Assembly (NCBI RefSeq): GCF_000427665.1
Contig: NZ_KE386572.1
Coordinates: forward strand, 2,876,196 to 2,940,195
Direction of reading: 5' to 3'
From: Geminicoccus roseus DSM 18922
Lineage (GTDB): Bacteria > Pseudomonadota > Alphaproteobacteria > Geminicoccales > Geminicoccaceae
Length of the DNA: 64,000 bases
Below, in pieces: positions 39,561 through 53,688 of this stretch; within the stretch, counting starts at the first letter, position 1, and each line of letters opens with the position of its first letter. Made by a program: the position numbers and the translations under genes. Below the pieces are notes generated by a model that worked only from the letters and a program-made list of their open reading frames with translations, did not search any database and was not told the origin of the DNA.

Positions 39561-40411
39561 CCGTTGGGCCCTCCGACCTTGGTCGAGCTGGTGGCCGGGG
39601 CGCCCGGCTTGGTGGCGGGGTTGCCGGCCGACGAGCCGAGCTGGCTGGAAGACGTGGTGCTCGTCGAGGATGCGCTCGACGAACCATGCATCGGATCGGT
39701 CGTGCCGGTACGGCCGGTCGGATACTCCATGGGCGTGGAGTGGGTCGAGGCGACCGGCGTCGTGCGGTCGGCCGATCCGCCATAGCTCGACCAGCGGGCA
39801 TCAGTGCCGTGGCCGCCGCCGTAGCTGCCATAGCCGCGGCGGGAGTCATAGCTGGCGCCCTGGCGTTCCGCCGAACTCTTCAGGAAGCGCGAAAGCGCAA
39901 AGCCGGCAGCCACCGTGATCCCGAAGAACACGACCGGCTCGCGGCGAGCATAGTTGGTCACGTCGTCGAGGATCTCGCCGAGGTTCCGGTTGCGCAGCGA
40001 CCCAGCGAATTCGTCGGCGGCGGAAGCCGCGTCCCGGACATAGCCGGCAAGGAGGGGCGAGGTGTCCTGCAGTTCCTCGGCCGCCTTGTTGGCCGCACGG
40101 GCGATGCCGCCGATCTGGTCGGCGCCAGCCGTCTTCTGCTCATCGGCGAAGCCCTCGGCACGCTCACGTGCGACACCGGCCAGCTCTTCGCCCTGCCTCT
40201 TCAGGTCGTGTCCCAGGCCCTCTGCTTCCGCCCTGGCGGTATGCCCCAGGTTCGATGCCTCGGCCTTGGCAGTGTCCAACGTGTTCCTGGCCGCATGAGC
40301 CGCCTTGTCCCGGTTCTCGTCGGTGGTCGAGCGGGGACCTGCACCAGGAGAATTGGCCGAGGTCGAGGACAGGGTGGGATTCGATCGGTAGTCCGTCGAG
40401 CCCGTCGTCAT
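39557..40411 (-). CDS. Helical membrane-associated stress protein with low-complexity tail
   Basis: A 284-residue protein, first of the three-gene operon. Residues ~30-130 are Ala/Glu/Lys-rich amphipathic helix of the LEA/apolipoprotein type (AEAEGLGHDLKRQGEEL). One transmembrane helix lies near residue 165-180 (PVVFFGITVAAGFALSRFL). The last ~100 residues are Gly/Ser/Thr/Tyr-rich and disordered. The start at 40411 has GAGGTG at good spacing. Probably an envelope- or desiccation-stress protein; exact role unknown. Confidence 0.72.
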   Translation of the reverse strand: MTTGSTDYRSNPTLSSTSANSPGAGPRSTTDENRDKAAHAARNTLDTAKAEASNLGHTARAEAEGLGHDLKRQGEELAGVARERAEGFADEQKTAGADQIGGIARAANKAAEELQDTSPLLAGYVRDAASAADEFAGSLRNRNLGEILDDVTNYARREPVVFFGITVAAGFALSRFLKSSAERQGASYDSRRGYGSYGGGHGTDARWSSYGGSADRTTPVASTHSTPMEYPTGRTGTTDPMHGSSSASSTSTTSSSQLGSSAGNPATKPGAPATSSTKVGGPNG

Positions 40412-40615
40412 GGCATCACCTCTGTGGTTGCCGCATTCTGGAGGGCTTTCTGATCCGTCCGAGGAGGTCACCGCGCATGATCGGCAGGATGTGAGGGTTC
40501 GTTGACGCGACATGGGCCGCTAGAAACCTGGTTCACTCCGAATACCAACCAGCGCAGAAATCTTATGAACGGAACACGCCGCCTCGAGACTGCGTGTTCA
40601 AGCCTGTGCCACCTC

Positions 40616-40641
40616 AACGAGATGACCTGCACCAAAGTTCC
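40616..40641 (-). promoter_or_regulatory. EcfG-type promoter for the DUF3618/holin operon (exact consensus)
   Basis: On the minus strand GGAAC (40641-40637), 17 bases, CGTT (40619-40616): an exact match to GGAAC-N17-CGTT. The leader before ATG 40411 would be about 200 bases, longer than for the other sites. Confidence 0.6.
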
Positions 40642-40702
40642 AACGTGATCTGGCAAGCGCCCAGAAGTTATCCGAACGGCAGGTAGGGGCCCGCTGAGCG
40701 TC

Positions 40703-40727
40703 GGAACCGCGCAGGGGACGGAGGGTT
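40703..40727 (+). promoter_or_regulatory. EcfG-type promoter for the 77-residue hydrophilic protein
   Basis: GGAAC (40703-40707), 16 bases, GGTT (40724-40727). Predicted leader of about 28 bases before ATG 40762. It is back to back with the site at 40616-40641, so both promoters of this divergent region are of the same class. The remaining ~300 bases of the region (40412-40740) show no gene. Confidence 0.6.
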
Positions 40728-40761
40728 GAACTGTTCATCCATGACGACGAGGAAGCCCAAG

Positions 40762-40995
40762 ATGGCGAACCGCATCGATCAGACCGCCGATGATGGCACC
40801 TCCAAGGGAGGCGGAAGCGGGAACCGGCCGGACAGCGGTCTTCAGCATTCCGTCGACAAAGCCGTTCCTGCCAGCGAGAAGCTTCCGGACAGGGCCGGGG
40901 AGAATCCTCTCAGCCAGCAGGTGAAGGACTCGGCCGATCGACGTGATCCAAAGCCGGGCTCCTCCACCCTGCAGGGTGGTGATGAGGTTCAGTGA
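40762..40995 (+). CDS. Small hydrophilic stress protein (unknown family)
   Basis: A 77-residue, highly charged protein rich in Asp, Gly, Ser and Lys without hydrophobic segments (MANRIDQTADDGTSKGGG), as expected for a disordered desiccation- or osmotic-stress protein. ATG 40762 is chosen because AGGA precedes it; an in-frame ATG at 40741 also exists. A stress-type promoter lies immediately upstream and a terminator follows 45 bases after the stop, so the gene is a self-contained unit. Confidence 0.6.
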   Translation: MANRIDQTADDGTSKGGGSGNRPDSGLQHSVDKAVPASEKLPDRAGENPLSQQVKDSADRRDPKPGSSTLQGGDEVQ

Positions 40996-41040
40996 TCTGG
41001 CGCAGCCGGATAGGCTAGCTGGCAAGTCCACCAGCCTGAC

Positions 41041-41077
41041 AAGGACCGTCCGTGTGCGATGCATGCGGGCGGTCCTT
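41041..41077 (+). terminator. Terminator after the small hydrophilic gene
   Basis: AAGGACCG (41041-41048) pairs with CGGTCCTT (41070-41077), with further pairing inside (TCCG with CGGG, one mismatch). TCTCGTTTCT follows. Because the stem is A-led and T-tailed it may work in both directions. Confidence 0.65.
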
Positions 41078-41158
41078 CTCGTTTCTGGACCTTGCTGTCC
41101 TGGACGCGTCTGGTGGCTGGAGGGCTCCGTCTGATCGCCACGATCATCGGCTCTCTCC

Positions 41159-41183
41159 GGAACCCGCGGTTCCACGCCAAGTT
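41159..41183 (+). promoter_or_regulatory. EcfG-type promoter for the SDR-SPW-VKOR operon
   Basis: GGAAC (41159-41163), 16 bases, AGTT (41180-41183). Predicted leader about 27 bases before ATG 41217. The -35 is the left arm of a perfect inverted repeat, GGAACC-CGC-GGTTCC (41159-41173), which could also be a protein-binding site. Confidence 0.45.
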
Positions 41184-41216
41184 TGCGATAAACTGAACTA
41201 GATCGGTCGTGGACGG

Positions 41217-49915: not shown

Positions 49916-50941
49916 ATGATGACGGCACTCGCCACGCGCGAGATCGGGACCACCGGCCTGCAGGTGCCGGTGCTTGGGTTCGGGTCCGCACCGCTCGGGG
50001 ACATCTACGAGAAGATCCCCGAGGACCGGGCGCTGGCCACGGTGCAGGCCGCCTACGACACGGGCTGCCGGCTGATCGACACTGCCCCCCTGTACGGCTA
50101 CGGCCTGTCCGAGCATCGGGTCGGCCACGTGCTGCGCCAGCAGCCGCGCGACAGCTACGTGCTGTCCACCAAGGTCGGCCGCTGGCTGAAGCCGACCCCG
50201 CCCGAGCAGATCGACCGGGGCCAGTGGGTCGGCGGGCTGAACATGCAGCCGGTCTACGACTATTCCTATGACGGCACCTTCCGCGAGGTCGAGCACAGCC
50301 TGCAGCGCCTGGGCGTGGAGCGGATCGACATCCTGTTCATCCACGACGTCGACATCTGGACCCATGGCAGCCGGGAAGCCTACGAGGAGCGCTACCGCCA
50401 GGCGCTGGAAGGCTCCTACAAGGCGCTGGCCGAGCTGCGCGCGCAGGGCGTGGTCAAGGCGATCGGCATGGGCGTCAACGAGATCGAGCCGTGCCGGCGG
50501 CTGGCGACCGACGCCGACCCGGACGTGTTCCTGCTGGCCGGGCGCTACACGCTGCTGGAGCAGGACGGGCTGGACGACCTGATGCCGCTGGCCCGGCAGA
50601 AGAAGTTCAGCTTCCTGCTGGGCGGCCCGTTCAATTCCGGCATCCTCGCCACCGGCCCGGTGCCGGGGGCCAAGTACAACTACAAGCCGGCGCCCCCGGA
50701 GATCCTGGAGCGGGTGCGGAAGATTGAGACGATCTGCCAGCGCCACGACGTTCCGCTGGCGGCGGCCGCGATCCAGTTCCCGCTGGGCCTGAAGGAGGTC
50801 GCCTCGATCATCCCGGGTGCGGTGAAGCCGGAGGAGGTCCAGGCCAACACCCGGCTGATGACCCAGCAGATCCCGGCGGCGCTGTGGGACGAGCTGCGCC
50901 ACGAGGGCCTGCTGCGCGAGGGCTGCCCGGTCCCCGGCTGA
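49916..50941 (+). CDS. Aldo/keto reductase (D-threo-aldose/pyridoxal dehydrogenase-like)
   Basis: A 341-residue cytoplasmic aldo/keto reductase. The tetrad is Asp and Tyr in LIDTAPLYGYG, Lys in LSTKVGRWL and His in FIHDVD. The N-terminus TREIGTTGLQVPVLGFGSAP and length match the subgroup of L-fucose/D-threo-aldose 1-dehydrogenases and pyridoxal 4-dehydrogenase. Two adjacent ATG codons (49916, 49919) follow GGGAG. A role with the divergent hydroxyacid dehydrogenase in sugar-acid catabolism is inferred. A tandem repeat array begins right after its stop. Confidence 0.88.
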   Translation: MMTALATREIGTTGLQVPVLGFGSAPLGDIYEKIPEDRALATVQAAYDTGCRLIDTAPLYGYGLSEHRVGHVLRQQPRDSYVLSTKVGRWLKPTPPEQIDRGQWVGGLNMQPVYDYSYDGTFREVEHSLQRLGVERIDILFIHDVDIWTHGSREAYEERYRQALEGSYKALAELRAQGVVKAIGMGVNEIEPCRRLATDADPDVFLLAGRYTLLEQDGLDDLMPLARQKKFSFLLGGPFNSGILATGPVPGAKYNYKPAPPEILERVRKIETICQRHDVPLAAAAIQFPLGLKEVASIIPGAVKPEEVQANTRLMTQQIPAALWDELRHEGLLREGCPVPG

Positions 50942-50948
50942 CCCGCCC

Positions 50949-51657
50949 GGGTTCGTTCGTGCAAAAAGCCGGTGCGGGGCGTGCCGAGCATCGCCTCGTC
51001 CGGCCTGCGGCGGCCGCCTTTCCCGCGGGGAGGGGCGGCCGCGCCCGGCTTGGGTTCGTTGGTGCCGCATGGCGATGTCCTGGGGCTGTTTCGGCCGGTG
51101 CGGGCGGGATCGGGCAGGGTAAGGCCCGGCGCTCGGGTTCGTTTCTGCAAAAAGCCAGTTCTGGGTGTTGCGGGGTGCCGTTTTGGCGGAGGCTGGGCGT
51201 GCGGCTGCCTGGAGAGCCGGGGTGATCGCGTCTGGCTCGGGTTCGTTCGTGCAAAACGGTGATGCTTGGGGCTGAGGCGGTCGGACCTGGCCGGATGCAG
51301 ACGGCTTGCGGCAGGTGCTTCCTCGGTGCTCGGGTTCGTTTGTGCAAAAAGCCAGTTCTGGATGTTGCGGGTGCTGTTTCGGCGGAGGCTGGGCGTGCGG
51401 CTGCCTGGAGGGCCGGGTTGATCGCGTTCGGCTCGGGTTCGTCCGTGCAAAACGGTGATGCCTGAGGCTGAAGCGGCCCGTGCAGACCGGGTGCAGATGG
51501 GTTGCGGCCGGGCAATGCCCGGTGCTCGGGTTCGTTTGTGTAAAACGCTGGTTCCCGGCGTTGCGGGTGCAGTTCCGGGGAAACCTCGGAACCGGCTGCC
51601 TGGAGGGCTAGGGCCGTCGCGTCCGGCTCGGGTTCGTTTGTGCAAGAACGGCGTCAT
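50949..51657. repeat. Compound tandem repeat array, eight ~83-104 bp units in four ~196 bp pairs
   Basis: The core GGGTTCGTTTGTGCAAAA, with small changes, starts at 50949, 51052, 51135, 51239, 51332, 51435, 51528 and 51630. Steps are 103, 83, 104, 93, 103, 93 and 102 bases. Odd units (A) continue AGCCAGTTCTGGGTGTTGCG and even units (B) continue CGGTGATGC, so two different units alternate and the real period is about 196 bases. The first pair is the most diverged and the last B unit is cut short. Frames open through the array read out the repeat and are not genes. Function unknown. Confidence 0.85.
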
Positions 51658-51987
51658 GCAGGATCGGGTGTGCCGGGCAGGGGGCATGCGGCCGGGCTGG
51701 TTCGGGCGGTGGCGCGGTGGCGGTTCGGGCGTCGGCGCTGCGGCGCGGGTGGTGGCATCCCGTGCTTCCAGGCCAACCGGAACGGGCATGCCAACCGGCA
51801 TGGGCAAGTGAACCAGCATGGGGAGAAGGCGTCATGGGGCGGGTCCTCGTCGGGCACCCCTAGCAGATCACGGGCTCATATTCCTATATCGACGTGGAAC
51901 TCCGCCGTCCGACATGCTTGTTCCATCATTGTCCTGCCGCGATGATGCGGGCATGTGGCCGGGCGATCCCTTTTCCGGAGCCCGTCC
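51658..51987. other. 330-base stretch without a supported gene
   Basis: It follows the repeat array. It has a GC-rich part and a short run of CATGCCAACCGG-like repeats near 51770-51820, then an AT-richer patch near 51880-51895. I saw no start with a binding site, no terminator and no RNA gene. Confidence 0.4.
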
Positions 51988-52137: not shown

Positions 52138-53688
52138 TCACAGGCGGTCGCGGCCGATCGGCAGCCAGGAGAAGCCGTCCCGGCCGATCAGCTCGTCGGC
52201 GGCGGTGGGGCCGTCGGTGCCGGCGAAGTAATGGTGGATCTCCTGCCGGCCGGACGTCCAGGCGTCCAGCACCGGCTGCACCGCCGCCCAGCCCGCCTCG
52301 ATGTTGTCGGCGCGCTGAAACAGGGTCGCGTCGCCGACCAGGCAGTCATAGATCAGCGTCTCGTAGCCGGTGGACGGCTCGGCCCGGAAATAATCGCTGT
52401 AGCGGAAATCCATGCGCACCTCGGACAGGCGCACCCTGCGGCCGGGCACCTTGGCGGCGAAGCGCATCGAGATGCCCTCGTCCGGCTGGACATGGATCAC
52501 CAGCATGTTGGGGTCGAGCCCGTCGGTCAGGCTGCGGAACAGGCTGCCCGGCGCCTTCTTGAACTGGATCGCGATCTCGGTCCGCCTGGCCGCCAGCGCC
52601 TTGCCGGTGCGGACAAAGAAGGGCACCCCGGACCAGCGCCAGTTGTCGATCGTGTAGCGCAGCGCGACATAGCTCTCGGTGCGGCTGTCGGGCGCCACGT
52701 CCGCCTCCTGGCGGTAGGCTGGCACCGAGCGGCCCTGGATCTGGCCGGGCGCATACTGGGCGCGCACCGCCATGGCGGCGGCCAGGTGCGGGTCGGGGCG
52801 CTCGATCGCCTCGATCACCTTGGCCTTCTCGCTGCGCACCGGATCGGCGCCGAACGAGTTGGGCGGCTCCATGGCGACCATCGCCAGGAGCTGGAACATG
52901 TGGTTCGGCACCATGTCGCGGAGCGCACCGGTGGCGTCGTAGAAATGGCCGCGCGTCTCGACCGTCACCGTCTCCGCCGCGGTGATCTGGACATGATCGA
53001 TGAACTCGCGGTTCCAGATCGGCTCGAAGATGCCGTTGCCGAAGCGCAGCGCCATGACGTTCTGGACGGTCTCCTTGCCCAGGAAATGGTCGATCCGGAA
53101 CATCTGGCGCTCCTCCAGCACCTTGAGGATCCGGGCGTTCAGCGCCTTGGCCGAGGCTAGGTCGGAGCCGAACGGCTTCTCCACCACCAGCCGGCGGAAC
53201 GAGCGCTCGCCCTCGGCCAGGAGACCGGCCGTCCCCAGCTGCTCGGCGATCGGGCCGAAGAAGCGTGCCGCCACGGCCAGGTAGAACACGGCGTTGGACT
53301 GGCCATGCGCCTTCTCCCGCTCGGCCAGCAGGGCGCCGACCCGCTCGAACGTGGCCGGATCGGCGAAGTCGCCGGACAGATAGCCGATCCGCCCGCACAG
53401 CCAGTTCCAGCTGTCCTGGTCCAGGGGCGCGCCGCCCGCCTCCGCGATCTCGCCGGCGGCCTTGGTCAGGTGCTCGCGGAACCCCGGCTCGTCCGCCTCC
53501 ACCCGGTCGACCCCGAGAATGGCGAAATCATCGGGGAGCAGGCCCTCGCGGGCCAGGTTGTGCAGGGCCGGCATCAGCAGGCGCTTGGTCAGGTCGCCAT
53601 AGGCACCGAAGATCACCACGGTCGAGGCCGGGGCCGGTCCCGCATCCGCCGGCATGGTGGTCCGGCTTCCTGGTGCTGCCTTGGTCAT
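52138..53688 (-). CDS. zwf: Glucose-6-phosphate 1-dehydrogenase
   Basis: A 516-residue enzyme catalysing oxidation of glucose-6-phosphate to 6-phosphogluconolactone, first step of the oxidative pentose-phosphate and Entner-Doudoroff routes. The coenzyme motif is GAYGDLTKR (Tyr replaces the usual Ser), the active site is FRIDHFLGKE with the catalytic His, and EKPFGSDL precedes it. Start 53688 is chosen because the family N-terminus begins soon after and a G-rich binding site precedes it; upstream in-frame residues are low complexity. pgl and edd are not adjacent. Divergent from a glucoamylase, which could supply glucose. Confidence 0.95.
   Translation of the reverse strand: MTKAAPGSRTTMPADAGPAPASTVVIFGAYGDLTKRLLMPALHNLAREGLLPDDFAILGVDRVEADEPGFREHLTKAAGEIAEAGGAPLDQDSWNWLCGRIGYLSGDFADPATFERVGALLAEREKAHGQSNAVFYLAVAARFFGPIAEQLGTAGLLAEGERSFRRLVVEKPFGSDLASAKALNARILKVLEERQMFRIDHFLGKETVQNVMALRFGNGIFEPIWNREFIDHVQITAAETVTVETRGHFYDATGALRDMVPNHMFQLLAMVAMEPPNSFGADPVRSEKAKVIEAIERPDPHLAAAMAVRAQYAPGQIQGRSVPAYRQEADVAPDSRTESYVALRYTIDNWRWSGVPFFVRTGKALAARRTEIAIQFKKAPGSLFRSLTDGLDPNMLVIHVQPDEGISMRFAAKVPGRRVRLSEVRMDFRYSDYFRAEPSTGYETLIYDCLVGDATLFQRADNIEAGWAAVQPVLDAWTSGRQEIHHYFAGTDGPTAADELIGRDGFSWLPIGRDRL

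Follow-up and report, generated by a model that had tools for sequence, protein, structure and literature searches.

Downstream of an aldo/keto reductase-like gene in Geminicoccus roseus lies a tandem array in which two kinds of unit alternate around a short common core. The array raises the question of whether the core is a by-product of local duplication or a DNA word that is kept for a reason of its own. We addressed it in the window, i.e., the whole stretch of 64,000 nucleotides analysed here, in the rest of the genome and in related genomes. The array is one of many sites, spread over the chromosome, of a one-way DNA word that appears to be under constraint at the level of DNA.

Structure of the array

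The sequence-only reading of the window had described eight core copies alternating between A and B units with a period of about 196 bases. The alternation is confirmed: the cores all lie on the plus strand at spacings of 103, 83, 104, 93, 103, 93 and 102 bp, and TRF reports a period of 196 with 2.7 copies at 51113-51651. The number of copies needs a qualification, as seven cores carry zero to two mismatches while the one at 51052 is degenerate with four (Table 1). The 9-mer GGGTTCGTT occurs seven times in 50941-51660, compared with at most two in 2000 dinucleotide shuffles. A+B pairs 2 and 3 share 86% identity; pair 1 was correctly named the most diverged, although narrowly, with 58-66% identity to the remaining pairs against 58-67% for pair 4. 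The array indeed starts right behind the reductase stop, 7 nt past the end of the ORF at 50941, and takes up much of a convergent gap of 1,196 bp. The reductase homologue of G. flavidas is 84% identical over 1-1942 of the query, and the 307 bp past its stop contain neither the core nor GGGTTCG. The suggestion of a structured-RNA repeat was not borne out: a gathering-score scan of the window against Rfam matched a tRNA at 154-228 and nothing else, and 45 core flanks fold no more strongly than 40 other intergenic pieces.

Table 1. Window array, its flanking genes and related loci (window positions unless an L locus is given; core mismatches scored against GGGTTCGTTTGTGCAAAA)
Feature	Position	Strand	Remark
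Upstream convergent gene, aldo/keto reductase-like ORF, 341 aa	49916..50941	+	name read from sequence, not from family search
Whole array, four A+B unit pairs, last B unit fading near 51700	50946..51700	+	~196-bp higher-order period
Core 1 (A unit, 103 bp)	50949..50966	+	1 mismatch
Core 2 (B unit, 83 bp), degenerate, GGGTTCGTTGGTGCCGCA	51052..51069	+	4 mismatches
Core 3 (A unit, 104 bp)	51135..51152	+	1 mismatch
Core 4 (B unit, 93 bp)	51239..51256	+	1 mismatch
Core 5 (A unit, 103 bp), exact	51332..51349	+	0 mismatches
Core 6 (B unit, 93 bp)	51435..51452	+	2 mismatches
Core 7 (A unit, 102 bp)	51528..51545	+	1 mismatch
Core 8 (B unit, fading)	51630..51647	+	1 mismatch
Downstream convergent gene, glucose-6-phosphate dehydrogenase-like ORF	52138..53655	-	name read from sequence, not from family search
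GPxTxxGK-family/NEP ORFs	L263:9455-10834, L267, L272, L238, L282; L124, L106, L182, L200, L205, L228, L229
Y1/HUH transposase gene, 283 aa	L263:11284-12135, C5 near 3.245 Mb	-	weak HTH-like match in tail

A dispersed family with one strand per array

The search of the genome and its relatives proposed by the sequence-only reading found the core well beyond the array, contrary to the refuting case of a core confined to it and in agreement with the idea of a dispersed intergenic family. At up to three mismatches, the 20-bp core CTCGGGTTCGTTYGTGCAAA has 122 matches (69 plus, 53 minus) in the 5.70-Mb genome of five contigs, and the reversed word has none. The matches fall into about 50 places with locus-specific periods. 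When Y was allowed at one position, 47 stretches around listed matches together with the window held 138 sites at up to three mismatches. In 60 stretches and the window, amounting to 1.25 Mb with some overlap and with 54 of the 60 picked around sites, we count 97 distinct sites, spread over 47 places, at no more than one mismatch and 136 over 52 places at no more than three. The six additional stretches that we chose ourselves (116 kb) contain zero cores at up to three mismatches, and one of them holds the half-word. The consensus reads C-T/C-C-GGGTTCGTT-C/T-GTGCAAA, and a shorter variant retains GGGTTCGTT and then diverges. Strands are mixed at none of the 18 places with several cores (at most one mismatch). 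Judged by titles and the openings of abstracts, no paper listed in our searches of the open-licence literature describes the word.

Array periods elsewhere are 107, 84/42, 73, 120, 63 and 156 bp, among others. Neighbouring words lie from 21 to at least 156 bp apart and the linkers are themselves repeated, which fails the unique, uniform spacers of a CRISPR. Many co-operative operator arrays show helical phasing; the core spacing differs, with no such phasing over 65 distances (Rayleigh below 1.9) and a borderline imbalance modulo 3 (31/18/16). The proposal of a single centromere-like or iteron array found no support: such systems have one array per replicon beside rep/par genes, whereas the core occupies 47 places at up to one mismatch in the chromosomal stretches examined. 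Around the parS sites (1.485-1.490 Mb), 16 kb of sequence lack any core within three mismatches and include one half-word, at 1493689.

Distribution in other genomes

The full word at up to one mismatch is present in 6 of 31 Geminicoccaceae genomes. Its 5' half, CTCGGGTTCGTTYG, has matches in 17 of 387 alphaproteobacterial genomes, while the reversed control gave 8 hits in all: 110 matches fall in the window's genome, 2 and 3 in two other Geminicoccaceae (G016 and G022), and one each in 14 genomes of other families. Since no alphaproteobacterium among the 382 sampled from other families has more than one copy, the 5' half marks the family. Fourteen genomes outside Geminicoccaceae with an exact hit have one to three matches each to a looser word, close to the zero to one of the control, so their exact hits are due to chance or nearly so; in our reading, some of the outside exact hits reflect one conserved coding context in Bacteroidetes-type genomes.

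Counts of CTCGGGTTCGTTNG or its YG form are 32 (N) in G. flavidas (G001), 35 in G014, 10 in G025 and 11 or 8 in G030, and G. harenae also has the word. At the loci viewed, the 3' half differs by genome, being GTGCAAA in Geminicoccus, GTCGAA at a spacing of about 21 bp in G030, GTGCCGC in G025 and mixed in G014. Beyond the class, GGGTTYGTTYGTGCAAAA matches an Acidobacteriaceae MAG (G031) 23 times with no more than one mismatch, while 11 of 199 others sampled from its family have one or two and the control gave 3 hits in all.

Placement and direction

The sites are mainly intergenic. By the calls of our own simple gene finder, and in stretches chosen around sites, 81 of the 97 sites at no more than one mismatch are noncoding and 16 coding, a 26-fold higher density in noncoding DNA over the 1.25 Mb. 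Convergent gaps are enriched, making up 12 of 34 gaps with cores versus 66 of 525 others (p 0.001), while divergent gaps account for 5 of 34 versus 122 of 525; many sites lie behind gene ends. In tandem gaps the core runs along the genes in nine cases and against them in eight, and over all places the relation of core direction to gene strand is not significant (rho -0.19, p 0.19), which favours a role as DNA over one as RNA. Genic sites at up to three mismatches are antisense at 13 loci and sense at 4 (p 0.049).

The direction of the core follows the local strand asymmetry. It agrees with the coding GC skew measured more than 400 bp away at 38 of 46 places (p 9e-6; 39/47 by the first measure, 36/45 and 34/43 in earlier versions of the test), a relation that emerged after several features had been explored, and 14 control GT-rich words agree in 42-64% of cases. 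Up to 5 kb away on either side the oriented skew is about 0.02; at 8-10 kb it has fallen to about 0.01. In other genomes, where skew was taken over the whole locus outside ±400 bp, coding or not, and 6 of 64 loci were dropped for a strand tie or too little sequence, agreement is 44 of 58 together: 17/20 in G. harenae, 7/9 in G014, 3/4 in G025 and 6/7 in the Acidobacteriaceae MAG, and weak taken singly in G. flavidas (7/11) and G030 (4/7). The bias relative to replichores, with the origin set by the parS sites, is not significant (28/47, p 0.24; earlier 24/43, likewise not significant), so it is local skew that may point to a role in replication. On one reading, the sites would have been placed in leading-strand direction originally and been carried along afterwards as segments were rearranged. 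Along the G. roseus contig C5 (L232-L291) the GC skew changes sign over tens of kb and matches the parS replichores poorly, which may reflect inversions or scaffold order.

A putative recognition site

We tentatively propose, as a quite possible explanation, that the 20-bp core is a putative one-direction recognition site in DNA for a sequence-specific protein of Geminicoccaceae. The sites would persist at inherited places, mainly intergenic gaps and one family of hypothetical genes. Tandem duplication of the core with its local flank would produce arrays in which the linkers drift while selection holds the core, and the array behind the aldo/keto reductase gene would be one such expansion. 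Because the sites are oriented with the locally G-rich strand, they may arise or act with a replication-linked polarity.

The Y1 transposase and REP-type repeats

The main rival, which we consider less probable but still plausible, is that the core is a REP-like, non-autonomous mobile element that a Y1 (HUH) transposase copies in single-stranded form at replication, with arrays arising by slippage and with the copying setting the direction of the core relative to the fork. The agreement of direction with local skew is what targeting of the lagging-strand template would produce, and IS608 and ISDra2 elements, in the part of the source available to us, target that template (PMC6006769). The G. 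roseus Y1 gene scores 77.8 bits against NF047646 (REP-associated tyrosine transposase; cut-off 80); the distance from its ORF to a core array is about 1.1 kb, or 1.6 kb when counted from the domain match, and to an ORF of the GPxTxxGK family described below 0.45 kb, while the 3.3 kb fetched around the gene contain no core. In G014, one variant copy of the word lies beside the Y1 gene. Among the Geminicoccaceae tested, RAYT-like Y1 ORFs longer than 200 aa are present in three of the five genomes rich in the motif and in none of the twelve poor in it (p 0.015, with the grouping made after the result). PF01797 matches were found in 5 of 19 genomes tested (G. roseus, G014, G025, the Acidobacteriaceae MAG and G055); G. 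flavidas and G030 carry the motif without a Y1 match, which speaks against this mechanism. The G. roseus protein is 283 aa long and has a tail with a weak HTH-like match, and Y1 subclasses with a large C-terminal domain are, in the text available, not tied to REPs (PMC6006769). The cores are also inherited in place and slow to diverge, which likewise counts against mobility.

REP/BIME elements with their RAYTs resemble the core, as far as the available parts of their descriptions go, in being short, present in more than 100 copies, mostly extragenic, clustered, sometimes in frame in genes, and, in the case of G. roseus, accompanied by a Y1 gene (PMC2817692, PMC3733652, PMC6006769). The core differs in having no palindrome, no GTAG/CGTC foot and no alternating orientation, each array keeping to one strand. 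We found neither a hairpin nor a second conserved motif around the cores, the folding of the flanks having mean z of -0.79/-0.53 against -0.91 for the background; the single inverted pair of the window array is confined to the first A unit (51003-51049). Since both the palindromic stem-loop with a GTAG/GGAG-type foot and the alternating orientation (0 of 18 places) were tested for and not found, we do not file the array as REP.

CGTC-tagged palindromic REPs, as partly described in PMC3733652, have a counterpart in the same genus in GTCATCCCC palindromes, a family that is separate from the core and rare in the window's genome: palindromic GTCATCCCC[CG] was counted 16 times over 154 kb of loci from G. 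harenae and 9 times over 1.25 Mb from G. roseus. Palindromes of the form GTCATCCCC...GGGGATGAC are common in G. harenae and G. flavidas loci (e.g., L137, L069 and L105) and rare in G. roseus. Given this rarity, the Y1 gene of G. roseus need not serve either repeat family.

Divergence of cores and linkers

An unlikely explanation, and one already disfavoured, is that the cores are neutral tandem repeats spread by chance and recombination, alike through recent duplication or gene conversion and without function. Copy number does vary among species, and one core lies at an interspecies rearrangement breakpoint. However, the core and linker of one unit are equal in age, and they show a 2.8-fold gap in divergence. 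In nine tandem arrays with aligned units, differences make up 202 of 2020 comparisons (10.0%) in core columns and 1853 of 6690 (27.7%) in linker columns, with 0 and 86 gaps, respectively. The core is less divergent than the linker of the same unit in all nine arrays (two-sided sign test, p 0.004), and the best 20-column window is a core in eight of them, L055 being the exception. The comparison somewhat favours the core, as units were both cut at cores and chosen by them; the fading end units of several arrays were omitted and the degenerate core of the window included. Recombinational homogenisation could also keep cores alike. The single strand per array with its skew alignment, and an exact DNA word retained across codons, are further points against neutrality.

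Expansion by tandem duplication or unequal exchange, suggested in the earlier reading, is supported: core and linker were duplicated together, and in one gap where G. flavidas and G. harenae have just one core, G. roseus has a 63-bp-period array, the flanking genes being 81-86% alike. In several further gaps the cores are present in two or three species while the linkers are unalignable; these gaps come from loci fetched by the word and are not a blind sample. One G. flavidas gap has two GGGTTCGTT words and its G. roseus counterpart none. The breakpoint core of G. harenae (L069:6040-6460) joins genes that lie at 178 kb and 518 kb in G. roseus, where both, 340 kb apart, adjoin arrays of the word; this is a single case.

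The word in NEP-repeat genes

It is improbable, and already disfavoured, that the conserved entity is a peptide (NEP/TNEPE protein linkers) or an RNA (a 3'-UTR element). The word is in frame in 12 ORFs as NEP-type peptides, and many sites lie behind gene ends, which speaks for it. The predominance of noncoding sites, the lack of a significant tie to transcription and the absence of a fold excess stand against it, as does codon use. All 29 NEP tripeptides in the 12 ORFs are encoded by AAC GAA CCC, for which the expected frequency from G. roseus codon use is 0.042 (GAA has a share of 18% and CCC of 27%), and with one per ORF discounted for retrieval the count is still 17 of 17; the loci were fetched by the word, repeats within an ORF may be duplicates, and seven ORFs are from other genomes. 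Elsewhere in the predicted genes of the 1.25 Mb, NEP is AAC GAA CCC in 21 of 42 cases and AAC GAG CCG in 15. Because the 29 NEPs all share the same codons, the constraint appears to act on DNA. This suggests that hypothetical proteins with NEP repeats owe part of their sequence to DNA and not to the function of the protein.

The window array read antisense likewise gives TNEPE/ERTR/RTNP peptides, and an antisense core array lies inside a 459-aa ORF (in L263) whose C-terminal half repeats TNEPE-like peptides. Its N-terminal part, SPAQVEASRRNGRRSHGPVTPEGKARAAINAR..., defines what we call the GPxTxxGK family, with the pattern S..GPVTPEGK...NA..HGL. The 12 members or relatives are distributed as five in G. 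roseus, three in G025 (two of these by similarity only, without the GPxT motif) and one each in G. flavidas, G014, G016 and G022; the motif-poor genomes G016 and G022 have at least one copy of the half-word inside a gene of this family. The proteins matched nothing in Pfam or NCBIfam (two members) or in PHROG or PADLOC (one member), were not found in phage records and gave no close relative in viral contigs. A model built from two sequences (mean pLDDT 69) gave no structural match at E of 0.001 or below, and a PDB sequence search nothing below E 0.25. Distant relatives occur on a Planctomyces plasmid, with NEANPNPSEP, and on a Picosynechococcus plasmid, without NEP.

The remark that peptides read from the array resemble spurious proteins of other genomes proved useful in leading to this uncharacterised family, whose NEP repeats come from the same DNA word. 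A link to KTNPI/NEPN-type proteins, presumably spurious, in planctomycetes was unsupported, as a variant of the word is present in 2 of 198 genomes of the class with the Phycisphaerae hit. A literature search on KTNPI listed nothing apparently related. Single genic sites may be coincidences; the reading through the L033 site is a FCTIEPN stretch, probably of the kind present in YchF GTPases.

If the core is a recognition site, the GPxTxxGK proteins, whose genes bear such sites, are one candidate partner. A bolder version, which we regard as doubtful, is that the GPxTxxGK...NAxxHGL family and its polar site form a two-part co-evolving system, in which the site was seeded chromosome-wide in leading-strand direction and has genus-specific 3' dialects. 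Should this be true, the plasmid relatives and the word of the Acidobacteriaceae MAG would point to a kind of system that crosses phyla.

Chi and KOPS are polar guide motifs that are non-palindromic, G-rich and strand-biased. That the core is a similar guide for a DNA motor or recombination enzyme is very unlikely, for although it is itself non-palindromic, G-rich and aligned with the G-rich strand, its places are arrayed and, at about 50 per 5.7 Mb, far sparser than Chi or KOPS sites, and only 28 of 47 agree with the replichore.

Relation to known repeat families

Short dispersed repeats of bacteria are often palindromic and are explained by transposases. The core differs from the usual kind in being non-palindromic, one-way in each array, retained letter for letter across synonymous positions and aligned with local strand asymmetry. 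Its nearest likeness is with the TAACTGA intergenic direct repeats of Beggiatoaceae, described in the portion of the source available to us as a heptamer found mostly just upstream of start codons (MacGregor 2015, PMC4679880). Both form many sets of short, oriented, intergenic direct repeats with a patchy occurrence in distant lineages, and no established binding protein is named in that portion for TAACTGA (PMC4679880). The core family shows the same oriented sets of a short word, in intergenic DNA and in patchy lineages; it lacks the position upstream of start codons and is enriched in convergent gaps instead. It further differs from TAACTGA, as far as that text describes it, in its length of about 20 bp, its presence inside one gene family, its alignment with GC skew and its long locus-specific linkers. 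We file the core family as a variant among the short intergenic repeat families, not as REP.

If the core is read by a protein, it represents a chromosome-wide site system of Geminicoccaceae with a candidate partner family, undescribed in the open-licence literature searched; should it instead move as single-stranded DNA, it would be a REP-like element that lacks a hairpin. Geminicoccus is cultivable, and both readings can be tested there.

Other repeats near the sites

Within the window, a lone GGGTTCGTT without the 3' half of the core lies at 40495, in a stretch without a predicted gene (40280-41216). In several gaps (L105, L130, L069 and L234) a hairpin-like sequence of the type CATCCTGCGG...GCAGGATAGCATG lies 3' of the core, and AGGATAGCA has one copy in 1.25 Mb of G. 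roseus. In the Acidobacteriaceae MAG (L077, L166, L176, L179 and L180), seven of the 14 distinct cores viewed have within the next 150 bp a CGAAACAGAGCC-type word, an imperfect inverted partner of the core not seen in Geminicoccus. The G030 loci L159, L183, L186, L189, L192, L198 and L201 hold arrays of units of about 21 bp of the GGGTTCGTTCGTCGAA type, several of which are then followed by TGTCGCG..ATA..CGCGACA-type palindromes.
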